DNA of 34,365 nucleotides from positions 1 through 34,365 of the IMG/VR virus record IMGVR_UViG_3300004092_000126; one strand, 5' to 3'. This DNA comes from a virus. Below the pieces are notes generated by a model. It saw only the letters and a program-made list of their open reading frames with translations. It ran no database searches and was not told where the DNA came from. The position numbers and the translations under genes were made by a program. This document shows, piece after piece, positions 8,582 through 13,089 of the stretch. The first letter of the stretch is position 1, and each line of letters begins with the position of its first letter.

Positions 8582-8624
8582 TAAAACATACATGACAGAA
8601 TTCCAGAGCTCCCACTTTGGAAAA

Positions 8625-8655
8625 ACCCCCAGTTATCTAGTTGATCGCTGGGGGT
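8625..8655. terminator. bidirectional intrinsic terminator
   Basis: ACCCCCAG (8625-8632) and CTGGGGGT (8648-8655) form a perfect 8-bp stem with a 15-base loop. The plus strand continues AACTTTTTAA; on the minus strand the stem runs straight into TTTTTCC. It separates the ERF operon from the convergent end of the glycine-rich adhesin genes and probably stops both. Confidence 0.85.
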
Positions 8656-8661
8656 AACTTT

Positions 8662-9573
8662 TTAAAAATATTCTGTAATTAAAACCAAACCATTTGCCCC
8701 GTTTCCGCCGGCGCCAGAACTGACAATAGCCGTTACACCGCCAGATCCGGCTCCGCCTGCCCCTCCCGGGTAGCCTCCATTTCCGCCATTTGAAGCGGTG
8801 TTGGCAGTATGAATAAATCCACCGCCCGCGCCGCCAGAACCACCAAATAATACGTTACTTGGTACGGTATAAAGACCCGCATTTCCGTTGCCGCCGGTGG
8901 TATTAGATCCGGCACCTCCAGCTGCTACAACGTAGCCATTAATGTCAAAAACTATTGCACCACCGGCACCACCGATTGAATCAGCTGCCGTAGCTGCTCC
9001 ACCACCACCACCACCCCCACCAGCTATAGCGAGACCAACAAATGAACTTGAAACATTGTTTGATCCAGCGGTACCGGTAAGATTGCTTCCTGTGCCGCCT
9101 ATTCCTGATGTTCCTTGATTTATCGGACTGACCGGGGCATCAAGACCAAGAAATGAATGTAAGGGAAAAAGTGATGAAGTATTTCCTGAAGTTGTTCCGC
9201 CGCCACTACCAGCACCGCCACCAAGAACAACAATATTTCCTACAGATGTATTGCCGCCTGGGCTTCCATTTATGCCGTTAGTTGCATCAGTAGATTGGGC
9301 TGCACCACCATTCCCCCCGGCTCCAATAGTTACCGTTTCTGAAGAATGAAAAAATGTTGCCGGAAAGCTGACTGCATAAAAGGAACCGCCATTGCCACCA
9401 CCGCCTCCGCTCGCAGCATTCAGAGTTCCCTTACGGCCCGACCCCCCACCGCCGCCGCCAGACCATAAAGCGATACTGACAACGCGAGTTCTATTATTTT
9501 TTGTCCATGTACCACTATTGGTAAATGTTGTTGTTATAACGCCACCATTATTAATTGCATTATTTGTTGCCAT
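8662..9573 (-). CDS. glycine-rich phage adhesin / fibre-tip protein, copy 1
   Basis: A 303-residue protein, one of three tandem paralogues. The N-terminus MATNNAINNGGVITTTFTNS is followed by GTWTKNNRTRVVSIALWSGG, the start typical of the Gly-rich domain found in phage fibres, then GGGGGGSGRKG. Long Gly-rich blocks alternate with less biased segments around residues 120-180 (LFPLHSFLGLDAPVSP) and the protein ends GLVLITEYF. Gly-rich motifs in T-even gp38 adhesins pack as polyglycine-II helices with variable loops that bind receptors; a similar fold is inferred. Last in the adhesin trio; ribosome site AAGGAG. GC content is well above the genome average because of Gly codons. Confidence 0.7.
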   Translation of the reverse strand: MATNNAINNGGVITTTFTNSGTWTKNNRTRVVSIALWSGGGGGGSGRKGTLNAASGGGGGNGGSFYAVSFPATFFHSSETVTIGAGGNGGAAQSTDATNGINGSPGGNTSVGNIVVLGGGAGSGGGTTSGNTSSLFPLHSFLGLDAPVSPINQGTSGIGGTGSNLTGTAGSNNVSSSFVGLAIAGGGGGGGGAATAADSIGGAGGAIVFDINGYVVAAGGAGSNTTGGNGNAGLYTVPSNVLFGGSGGAGGGFIHTANTASNGGNGGYPGGAGGAGSGGVTAIVSSGAGGNGANGLVLITEYF

Positions 9574-9581
9574 ACATCTCC

Positions 9582-10511
9582 TTAAAAGTATTCAGTTACG
9601 ATTACTAGGCCCGCACCACCTTGTCCACCGGCGCCAGAATTAGATACAGCACTGATACCACCACTGCCGCCACCGCCGCCGCCACCGGGTAAGCCACCAG
9701 TGCCTCCAGCGCTCGCGGTCGCCGTCCCGAATGCGTATCCTCCGCCCGCCGCACCACTACCTGCAGCCAGTCTTCCTGCAGCTACACCATAAATACCCGG
9801 ATTTCCATTGCCACCCTGAGTATTAGTGCCCCCAGTGCCGCCAGCAACAAGAGCGAATCCAAAAAGGGTATCATTATAAATGGTTGCTCCATTGCCACCA
9901 AGACCATCAGCAGCTGCTTGGGCACCCCCGCCGCCGCCTCCACCACCTGGGGTGAACCACATAGGTACGGTAGTTGGTTGTGGAACTGAAGCACCTGCGT
10001 TACCATTCGTTGCAGTACCATTTCCTCCCGACCCGCTAGTATTGCTATTGGGATAAGGGTTGCAAGGAGAATCAATTGCTAGATAAGAAATTCGTGCAGC
10101 GTTTATTGAGTTATTAGTAGAATTTGTAGTAGTGCCTCCGGTTCCGGGGCTTGGTGCACCTTCTACAGTAAGATTACCAAAAGATGAATTTCCTCCGACG
10201 GATCCACTAATACCATTGGTAGCATTGGTTGTTTGGGCATTGCCACCACCACCACCAGAACCTACAACTACTCCAACAGTAGATCCAAAAAAAGATGCGG
10301 GAAACGTTGCACATAAGAAGTCTGAACCACCACCACCACCACCACCACCTGATGAGCCTGCAGTGCCTTTGCGACCAGATCCGCCGCCCGCGCCGCCACC
10401 CCACATTTGAATATTAACAACTTTGGTTCTAGGGTTTTTAGTCCAGGTATTATTGGAGGTGTAAACTGTCATTACTACACCGCCATTATTTATCGCATTA
10501 TTTGTACTCAT
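9582..10511 (-). CDS. glycine-rich phage adhesin / fibre-tip protein, copy 2
   Basis: A 309-residue paralogue of its two neighbours. The N-terminus (MSTNNAINNGGVVMTVYTSN, then TWTKNPRTKVVNIQMWGGGA) and C-terminus (GAGGQGGAGLVIVTEYF) match copy 3 closely. Near 9690-9760 the DNA is almost identical to copy 3 around 10635-10705, pointing to recent duplication or gene conversion. The segment from about residue 120 to 190 (NAARISYLAIDSPCNPYPNS, PTTVPMWFTP) differs strongly. Likely displayed on the tail for receptor binding. Ribosome site AAGGAAAAACT. Confidence 0.7.
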   Translation of the reverse strand: MSTNNAINNGGVVMTVYTSNNTWTKNPRTKVVNIQMWGGGAGGGSGRKGTAGSSGGGGGGGGSDFLCATFPASFFGSTVGVVVGSGGGGGNAQTTNATNGISGSVGGNSSFGNLTVEGAPSPGTGGTTTNSTNNSINAARISYLAIDSPCNPYPNSNTSGSGGNGTATNGNAGASVPQPTTVPMWFTPGGGGGGGGAQAAADGLGGNGATIYNDTLFGFALVAGGTGGTNTQGGNGNPGIYGVAAGRLAAGSGAAGGGYAFGTATASAGGTGGLPGGGGGGGSGGISAVSNSGAGGQGGAGLVIVTEYF

Positions 10512-10520
10512 AGTTTTTCC

Positions 10521-11450
10521 TTAAAAATATTCTGTTACGATGACCAGGCCTGCACCGCCTTGTCCACCTGCGCCAGAGCTTGATACAGCACTGACACCGC
10601 CAGATCCGCCTCCGCCACCACCTCCCGGCTGACCACCAGTGCCTCCAGCGCTCGCGGTCGTCGTCCCAAAGGCGTATCCTCCGCCCGCCGCACCACTGCC
10701 TGCCCACAATCCATTACCGGTAGACCCATAAATACCCGGTTGCCCATTGCCACCTTGAGTGTTGGTGCCCCCAATTCCACCTGCAACCACTAAAACGCTC
10801 GCATCAGAATAAATAGCGCCACCACTTCCACCAAGACCATCTGCAGCCGATCTTCCGCCCCCACCGCCGCCTCCACCGGTTGGTATAAACCATGGCGTTG
10901 TAGGACCTTCAGGATCAACGTTATTATTTCCATTAGTTCCTGTGGTTGTTGTACCATTCCCTCCTTGTCCTGAAGCCCCACTCGTAGGGAAAAGGCCAGG
11001 AGGTGCCGTAAGGCCTAAAAAGTTCAGTGTTGGAGATTGAGTTTGGGCGGCAGATGTTCCTGCTATTCCAGCGGATCCCACAACAGGTAAAGAAACTTTA
11101 ATATTACTAAAAGAAGATCCTGTGTTCGTATTTAAACCTGGATTGCCATTGGTAGCATCAGTTGATTGAGCATTACCACCTGCCCCTCCAGAGCCAACAA
11201 CTACTGTTTCTGTAGAATTGAAGTATATTGCAGGAAATATAGCTGACATAAAATTACCACCACCTCCGCCTCCTCCTCCTCCTGACGAATTGGCTGTTCC
11301 CTTTCTGCCCGACCCACCACCTCCCCCACCGGACCAAATTTGGACATTCACTATTCTCGTTCGAGAATTCTTAGTCCATGAAGTGGTACCCGGTGTGGAA
11401 AAAACAGTAGTTATAACACCACCATTATTTATAACATTAATTGTACTCAC
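10521..11450 (-). CDS. glycine-rich phage adhesin / fibre-tip protein, copy 3 (GTG start)
   Basis: A 309-residue paralogue and first of the trio to be transcribed. It starts with GTG (11448-11450, read as Met in MSTINVINNGG), which overlaps the TGA of the small membrane gene upstream as GTGA, behind an AGGAAAAAT ribosome site. It has the same conserved ends and a divergent middle (QSPTLNFLGLTAPPGLFPTS, NNNVDPEGPTTPWFIP). The Gly-rich blocks (GGGGGGGGGNFMSAIF, PTGGGGGGGGRSAADGLGGS) support a polyglycine-II type fold. Either a receptor-binding subunit or an alternative tip to the other two copies. Confidence 0.7.
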   Translation of the reverse strand: MSTINVINNGGVITTVFSTPGTTSWTKNSRTRIVNVQIWSGGGGGGSGRKGTANSSGGGGGGGGGNFMSAIFPAIYFNSTETVVVGSGGAGGNAQSTDATNGNPGLNTNTGSSFSNIKVSLPVVGSAGIAGTSAAQTQSPTLNFLGLTAPPGLFPTSGASGQGGNGTTTTGTNGNNNVDPEGPTTPWFIPTGGGGGGGGRSAADGLGGSGGAIYSDASVLVVAGGIGGTNTQGGNGQPGIYGSTGNGLWAGSGAAGGGYAFGTTTASAGGTGGQPGGGGGGGSGGVSAVSSSGAGGQGGAGLVIVTEYF

Positions 11451-11604: not shown

Positions 11605-11895
11605 TTATTGAGTAAAAAATGATTGAATTGATATTGGCTCATCCAAATTAATAGTGTCTTTATTTTGCATAATATAGTTATCAACCGGATTTGAATATCT
11701 ACTGAGACTCCAACTATCGAGTTTAGTTTTATTGTTTATTTGGGTATCAGTAAAATCAAAATCATAGATGAGACTGTACATTTGCGATGTTGTTCGTTCT
11801 TTATCAAAAATATGTTGTTCAAGCACGGAGCTGTATTCGCAATAGCTTAATGAAGAAAATATAAATAACGGAATTGTTACTAGTAATATTTTCAT
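11605..11895 (-). CDS. small exported protein with Sec signal peptide
   Basis: A 96-residue protein with a clear signal peptide, MKILLVTIPLFIFSSLSYC, whose cleavage is probably near residue 19. The Cys is preceded by Tyr, so it is a poor lipobox. The mature part is small and polar (YSSVLEQHIFDKERTTSQMY, NYIMQNKDTINLDEPISIQS). The ribosome site AAAGGAG is strong. It is directly followed by the 49-residue membrane protein and then the adhesins. An exported product in a late operon could be an outer spanin, a superinfection-exclusion protein or another envelope factor. Function unknown. Confidence 0.7.
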   Translation of the reverse strand: MKILLVTIPLFIFSSLSYCEYSSVLEQHIFDKERTTSQMYSLIYDFDFTDTQINNKTKLDSWSLSRYSNPVDNYIMQNKDTINLDEPISIQSFFTQ

Positions 11896-11976: not shown

Positions 11977-12012
11977 GACTGGATAGCATAATCACTCTAT
12001 CCAGTCTTTTTT
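11977..12012 (+). terminator. strong hairpin with plus-strand T tract
   Basis: GACTGGATAG (11977-11986) and CTATCCAGTC (11997-12006) form a perfect 10-bp stem, followed on the plus strand by TTTTTT. It sits directly after the stop of the minus-strand gene at 12011, where the minus-strand hairpin is followed by CCCCCAAAAG instead of a U tract. It would stop rightward (antisense) transcription; on the minus strand it may only protect the mRNA end. Confidence 0.65.
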
Positions 12013-12745
12013 ATACAACGGTTATATTACCAATACTTTGTACCACTACAAAATCTGTATTAGCTATATTGCACACAAACCGAATCGTGTCATAGATCGC
12101 CGTAGACGAAAGAGAACCGCTTACCCCTGTCGTTGTATTGTAAGTTCCAAAATGCATCGTCTGGCCGGCTGCTTGTGTGATTGTCCACCCTGTGGCATTA
12201 TTCATACCTGCTACTGTGAATGTATCACCAACTGCTGCAGTACCTGGTAAAGAGAATGATATAGTGCCCGCATTATTAGCAAAGTAACCATTGCTTTTCA
12301 CTAATGCTTGCGATGCACCCGTTATCACTGTCCATACAAGGCCGCCACTATCAGCTTCTAGATTCAAAGTATTAGCGCCAGTAGTAAAGGTTATCGTGCC
12401 ACCAGTACTGGTTAATGTAGCAAATGCAGGGTCAGCTGCTGTAGCGCCTATAAGCACTTGCCCATTCGATCCCACTGCCGTTACCGCAACTGCTGAAGTT
12501 CCTTCACCAATTAATACACCATGCGTTGTAAGTGAAGTGTCTCCTGTCCCACCTGATGCTACCGGGAGTGTTCCAGTAAATCCTACCGTTACTGTATTAC
12601 CAGCTCCTGATGTTGCAATATTAGGGCCACCATGAACGAATATGGTACCACTACCATTAGGCGCTATCGCACCACCAGAGTCTGGTGTTAATGTAGTTAC
12701 AGCTCCAATTGAGGAAGCTGTAACCTTAGTTCCTATTTGAGACAT
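12011..12745 (-). CDS. phage tail fibre / adhesin-like structural protein
   Basis: A 244-residue Ala/Gly/Thr/Ser-rich protein starting MSQIGTKVTASSIGAVTTLT. It contains LPVASGGTGDTSLTTHGVLI at about 60-80 and GSNGQVLIGATAADPAFATL, a linker type common in tail-fibre and spike proteins. The C-terminal half (SQALVKSNGYFANNAGTISF, VGDTFTVAGMNNATGWTITQ) resembles a beta-sandwich tip domain. Highly repetitive beta-strand composition and location among fibres support a virion surface protein. It is 2 bases from its upstream neighbour. Ribosome site GGAGACT. Confidence 0.7.
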   Translation of the reverse strand: MSQIGTKVTASSIGAVTTLTPDSGGAIAPNGSGTIFVHGGPNIATSGAGNTVTVGFTGTLPVASGGTGDTSLTTHGVLIGEGTSAVAVTAVGSNGQVLIGATAADPAFATLTSTGGTITFTTGANTLNLEADSGGLVWTVITGASQALVKSNGYFANNAGTISFSLPGTAAVGDTFTVAGMNNATGWTITQAAGQTMHFGTYNTTTGVSGSLSSTAIYDTIRFVCNIANTDFVVVQSIGNITVV

Positions 12746-12747
12746 AG

Positions 12748-13089
12748 TTAGTCTCCACTGCTATAGAATACAGAAATATAAACAGATCCAGTTGTTGGTG
12801 TCCCAATAAAACTCTTAACATTCATAACAGTGCCTCTAGTTATGAACCAACCATCATTATTAACTCTATTGGATGCTACATCCATCACAAAATATGATTG
12901 TGGTAATAACGGGAAATGATCGATTACACCATCAAAACTAAACATCAAAGTTGCATCTGTTAAATTCTGAACTAGCATTTGGCGACCACCATTATCCAAT
13001 TCAGATCCAATAGGTGCATAAGATGATGAAATTCCACCAAATGCTAAAGTTCGTACAGGGTCTGTTCTCAAGGCTATCGAATATGCCAT
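12748..13089 (-). CDS. small putative virion protein
   Basis: A 113-residue protein starting MAYSIALRTDPVRTLAFGGI. Predominantly beta in character (QMLVQNLTDATLMFSFDGVI, GWFITRGTVMNVKSF, GSVYISVFYSSGD). The pattern, a short jelly-roll-like domain that mentions no enzyme motif and sits between fibre genes, suggests a fibre-associated or head/tail decoration protein. Ribosome site AAAGGAT. Confidence 0.6.
   Translation of the reverse strand: MAYSIALRTDPVRTLAFGGISSSYAPIGSELDNGGRQMLVQNLTDATLMFSFDGVIDHFPLLPQSYFVMDVASNRVNNDGWFITRGTVMNVKSFIGTPTTGSVYISVFYSSGD

Follow-up and report, generated by a model that had tools for sequence, protein, structure and literature searches.

Three tandem glycine-rich genes with a shared leader as a candidate tip-adhesin array in a short-tailed-phage-like genome

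The fibre protein gp24 of the cyanophage Pam3 contains a TNF-like domain that resembles ALK and sends its strands out as glycine-rich rods, and it joins a conserved glycine-rich stem to a hypervariable distal tip (PMC9608196). Glycine-rich rods also display variable loops in the T-even gp38 adhesins (Salmonella phage S16, PDB ID: 6F45), and the mycobacteriophage Bxb1 has a tail-tip component of 267 residues, gp33, named the tail wing brush (PDB ID: 9D93). Here we describe three glycine-rich genes from a 34,365-base IMG/VR virus record (the window, that is, the whole stretch of DNA that was analyzed), which carries terminase, portal, and major capsid genes and is short-tailed-phage-like. We consider it probable that these genes form a leader-tagged, plug-in array of receptor-binding tip adhesins of a short-tailed phage.

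The three genes, c3 (10521..11450, 309 aa, with a GTG start), c2 (9582..10511, 309 aa), and c1 (8662..9573, 303 aa), are intact open reading frames arranged head to tail on the minus strand as the last genes of the late operon, with c3 first and c1 last in transcription. The gaps between them are 8-9 nt, and the AGGA-type ribosome sites of c2 and c1 overlap or abut the stop codon of the preceding gene. An intrinsic terminator lies 3' of c1 at the late operon end (8621..8654, minus strand; CCCCCAG, a 15-nt loop, CTGGGGG, and TTTTT); it was read by eye, and its loop exceeds the length allowed in the terminator scan. Upstream, also on the minus strand, are a tail-fibre-like gene of 244 aa (12011..12745) and a small conserved tail protein of 113 aa (12748..13089), which have homologues in 13 and 18, respectively, of 21 relatives. 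The interval separating the tip genes from the fibre genes contains an ORF of 96 aa (11605-11895) whose start resembles a signal peptide; it has no convincing family match and no homologue in the relatives compared. An ERF gene, identified by a Pfam ERF match, adjoins the tip genes. With silent-site divergence between the copies saturated and all three frames open, we reject the possibility that the triple is an assembly artefact.

A preliminary description of this DNA, made from the letters alone, had recognized three tandem paralogues of 303-309 aa with a common N-terminus, a GGGGGGSGRKGT block, and a G.GLV.(I/V)TEYF C-terminus, and the alignment bears this out. Pairwise protein identity is 53-65% (65% for c2 and c3), and each copy has a glycine content of 29% and ten glycine-rich motifs. 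All three begin with a similar leader, MSTINVINNGG in c3 (11418..11450), MSTNNAINNGG in c2 (10479..10511), and MATNNAINNGG in c1 (9541..9573; all on the minus strand). The hypervariable center described at about residues 115-205 was likewise found: across the three copies, 22 of 91 positions are invariant in residues 115-205 of c2 (9897..10169, minus strand) versus 112 of 218 elsewhere (Fisher p=9.4e-6).

Family searches place the copies among tail proteins. Pfam Gly_rich_2 (PF21722), a model that names only a glycine-rich domain, matched c1 (33.9 bits) and c3 (26.6 bits) above its cut-off of 24.3 and c2 below it (13.7 bits), and it matched 22 of 24 family members at E<=1. In PHROGs the copies match tail families, c3 falling in PHROG 863 (tail). 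A profile of the three copies searched against the PDB retrieved Bxb1 gp33 (E=1.7e-5), the match covering only the first glycine-rich part. AlphaFold2 modeling of c2 as a single chain, with 23 relatives in the alignment, gave a pLDDT of 81.3 and a pTM of 0.83, with residues 1-9 and 134-156 (the latter within the variable center) below a pLDDT of 50. In this model the leader is disordered and is followed by strands and extended non-helical rods, the only helix being residues 72-74. Foldseek analysis of the model identified Bxb1 gp33 (9d93, E=1.8e-10), Pam3 fibre gp24 (7ypx, E=4.8e-5), and ALK (E=0.018), with low whole-chain TM scores of 0.36-0.42 to the solved structures, and in a viral library phage glycine-rich proteins at TM 0.69-0.80 were among the top five; glycine-rich sequence can inflate such scores. 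Given that the whole-chain TM is only 0.36-0.42, we read the match to Bxb1 gp33 and Pam3 gp24 as probable shared architecture and not close kinship. The copies are thus predicted to have a TNF-like base carrying glycine-rich rods. The earlier proposal of glycine-rich rods presenting variable segments on a tip adhesin therefore appears right in kind, as judged from Gly_rich_2, the model, Foldseek, and the published Pam3 structure (PMC9608196). The particular likeness to T-even gp38 did not survive: Pfam at E<=1 gave only Gly_rich_2, 6F45 was absent from the PDB-sequence and Foldseek matches, and kinship with gp38 is rejected, leaving a likeness by analogy. A partner like gp37 of the T-even long tail fibre was not found among the structural genes scanned. 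The features that bear on a polyglycine II lattice are the ten motifs of each copy and the extended rods of the model, and such a lattice is possible.

Silent sites distinguish constraint on the protein from sharing of DNA. Whole-gene dS is 2.6 for c1/c2, 1.4 for c1/c3, and 1.3 for c2/c3, with dN of 0.3-0.5; silent sites are thus saturated or close to it, which leaves selection on the protein as what keeps the ends constant. Over the first 60 alignment columns, c2 and c3 are identical at 6 of 26 four-fold sites, about the expectation from codon usage, and constancy of the 5' ends at the DNA level is rejected. One 3' tract departs from this pattern. In alignment columns 236-277, 21 of 25 four-fold sites are identical between c2 and c3, the best 25-site run in a permutation test that covered the three copy pairs (p=0.0014). 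The tract corresponds to 9696..9821 in c2 and 10635..10760 in c3 (both minus strand) and is also seen in a repeat, 9579-9764 versus 10518-10703, with 85% identity over 186 nt. The preliminary description had called the c2 and c3 DNA nearly identical here, which overstates the resemblance (the longest exact run is 28 nt), although the match does exceed the background of these genes. The tract suggests past gene conversion at the conserved end, and, this tract excepted, the constant ends reflect mainly protein-level constraint. A four-fold-site scan of the three pairs gave no sign of loop swapping in the center between the tandem copies.

A search of viral contigs with c2 alone found no relatives, and an alignment of all three copies did find them. 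Relatives were further collected through the major capsid protein (21 uncultured genomes, whose genes were compared) and with an alignment of the 113-aa protein, which retrieved 70 loci. Among 50,697 phage records the tip proteins had no match and the capsid and portal only distant ones, and neither c3 nor the head of a relative retrieved anything from cultured phages. In the relatives, a variable slot sits downstream of the 113-aa and 244-aa landmark genes, and its content differs from locus to locus. In loci L129-L136 the slot contains a single glycine-rich gene, which begins MATNN[AS]IN, and in L171 and L158 two glycine-rich genes in tandem, the L158 pair with a different leader. In many others, including G001, G003, G021, and G045, it is occupied by genes of ~220 aa that start with MAKxN[AS]INN or similar; these have weak Pfam C1q matches (2 of 10 members, best E=2e-4) and resemble C1q/TNF folds by Foldseek on a moderate model (pLDDT 73). 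Leader-bearing genes occurred singly in 22 surveyed loci, in a run of two in 10, in a run of three in 6, and not at all in 42, as counted with a loose pattern that some other tail genes also fit; of 1,982 ORFs with a length of 120 aa or more, 59 conform to a similar pattern. Because the fold of C1q is also that of TNF, both head types may have the same base, one of them with its loops lengthened into rods.

Two further features of these loci concern the C1q-like tip genes. One locus (L165:13040-15214) has three tandem C1q-like genes of 239 aa with a shared leader of a second type, M-A/G-K-Q-G-F-K.... A small conserved protein, MKIQIDGKDLFELTETQKKVIKNDI... (MKIxID...QKKVIK), is encoded at L161:14592-14924 and has homologues in about 24 loci; its neighbors are C1q-like tip genes, and neither the window nor the loci whose glycine-rich tips bear the leader have it. 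It is possibly a tip assembly factor or chaperone, and its association with C1q-like genes as opposed to glycine-rich ones is no more than suggestive (p=0.06).

The capsid search produced two other observations. The major capsid family was present in 8 of 234 Chlamydiota genomes (L208, L210, L222-L236) versus 3 of 380 and 1 of 295 in two other phyla; without seeds the counts are 7 of 233 versus 2 of 673 (p=0.0015), the control phyla having been picked because they held a match. This is a hint that Chlamydiota are the hosts; the matches lie on contigs of 6-41 kb where checked, which leaves room for binning error. Several relatives have the major capsid gene in pieces (L210:3821-5895, L211:10001-11373, G129, G185, G217, and G237), in some cases with ORFs between the pieces, and these splits are likely introns or similar insertions.

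Replacement of the head can be followed between close relatives with a single copy, the only ones in which it was observed. L134 and L129 have neighboring genes of 174 aa (99% amino acid identity, dS 0.19) and 559 aa (99%, dS 0.12), whereas their glycine-rich heads share 51% amino acid identity with a dS of 2.7. The codons of the leader are identical at 30 of 30 nt; along the DNA, each 30-nt block matches at 27-30 positions as far as codon 10, and then at 12-23 until the start of the next gene. L134 and L133 show the same downstream contrast (dS 0.18 for the 559-aa gene, 2.3 for the head). In these alignments, the leader is the upstream edge of the replaced cassette. Since the leader DNA is kept while the body changes, what these relatives exchange is the entire body behind an unvarying leader, and no shuffling of loops from one tandem copy to another is visible. 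Upstream of the head, L134 and L129 also diverge in two fibre genes (51% and 79% identity), so the head is not the sole variable part. The same triple was not found in any near relative.

The tandem copies have also arisen or been homogenized locally. In a tree, c1, c2, and c3 of the window form one clade (100/100), the L171 pair is likewise a clade, and the L158 pair groups at 97/68, so that an old orthologous trio maintained across phages is unsupported for the glycine-rich copies. Tandem C1q-like copies tend to group by phage as well (11 label changes versus a shuffled mean of 18.6, with 0 of 200 shuffles as low). Duplication or homogenization within lineages has therefore been repeated, on two head types.

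In the reading we favor, each protein would consist of a short disordered leader of ~10 residues (M-A/S-x-x-N-A-I-N-N-x) and one head of ~295 residues, in which a TNF-like β base is predicted to extend its strands as some ten glycine-rich rods; the outer end would carry variable turns and a single long variable excursion (residues 115-205). As a constant docking tag, the leader would place any head onto the tail, and the head would set the receptor. Relatives put either glycine-rich or C1q/TNF-like heads behind the same leader in the same slot, often as two or three tandem paralogues, and from this the window phage would co-express a few tip heads that are not identical; in the course of time, the whole of a head would be replaced behind its leader. 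We infer docking by the leader, trimers, receptor binding, and co-display of three specificities on one virion. The wider generalization, that a leader shared across head folds docks any head, that one to three tandem heads put several on each virion for several receptors, and that heads are exchanged whole, is possible but rather doubtful.

Another hypothesis is that the three paralogues form a heterotrimer, one subunit each, making a single asymmetric tip. C1q assembles from three different chains, the C1q/TNF heads have a trimeric type of fold, several relatives have runs of three, and each window copy is intact, with dN far lower than dS. Such a mixed tip would fit the tandem arrays seen across relatives; a fixed 1:1:1 trimer, however, leaves unexplained that relatives have one or two copies more often than three, and copies tend to cluster by phage and not by position, and we regard it as unlikely. 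A structural brush or low-specificity carbohydrate binder, as is possible for Bxb1 gp33, would account for gp33 being the best solved match and for the separate large fibre proteins of a G-x-N-P-L-A-Y-x-G-V type that many relatives have beside the slot. Head replacement between near-identical flanking genes is nevertheless typical of specificity determinants, and we give a brush or low-specificity role only a small chance.

A further reading makes the extra copies chiefly a source of loops for swapping by recombination, with help from the ERF annealase; the preliminary description had raised it alongside a mixed fibre tip. The adjoining ERF gene and the shared c2/c3 tract agree with some recombination, but the one tract that can be detected between copies lies in the conserved 3' end, the center and 5' ends show saturated divergence, and relatives replace whole heads. 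The proposal finds little support, and we consider it very improbable. From the silent-site comparison along the copies that the preliminary description called for, one 3' c2/c3 tract emerged, and conservation of the 5' ends in DNA did not.

If the tip-adhesin array is as we propose, a very short peptide suffices for receptor-binding heads of quite different kinds to replace one another, and tandem head genes give small phages several specificities at the same time. L134 and L129 are a natural pair with one head replaced between near-identical flanks, which makes the question directly testable.

Among described systems, Bxb1 gp33 is the best match by both sequence profile and fold. Pam3 gp24 resembles the copies in having a TNF-like base, glycine-rich rods, and variable distal tips, features that are predicted for the copies. 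It differs in having an N-terminal helical docking shaft, where the copies have only a disordered leader of ~10 residues, and in its dedicated chaperone, gp25, none having been recognized among the scanned genes of the window (some small ORFs lay outside the scan). The window also has three tandem copies, unlike Pam3 gp24. The C1q/TNF-like tip proteins of the relatives occupy the same slot, have the same leader, and also occur in tandems of 2-3, as ~220-aa C1q-like jelly rolls without glycine rods. Each copy is a new representative of the TNF-like, glycine-rich type of tip, to which a leader-tagged array of tandem, exchangeable heads adds a variation.
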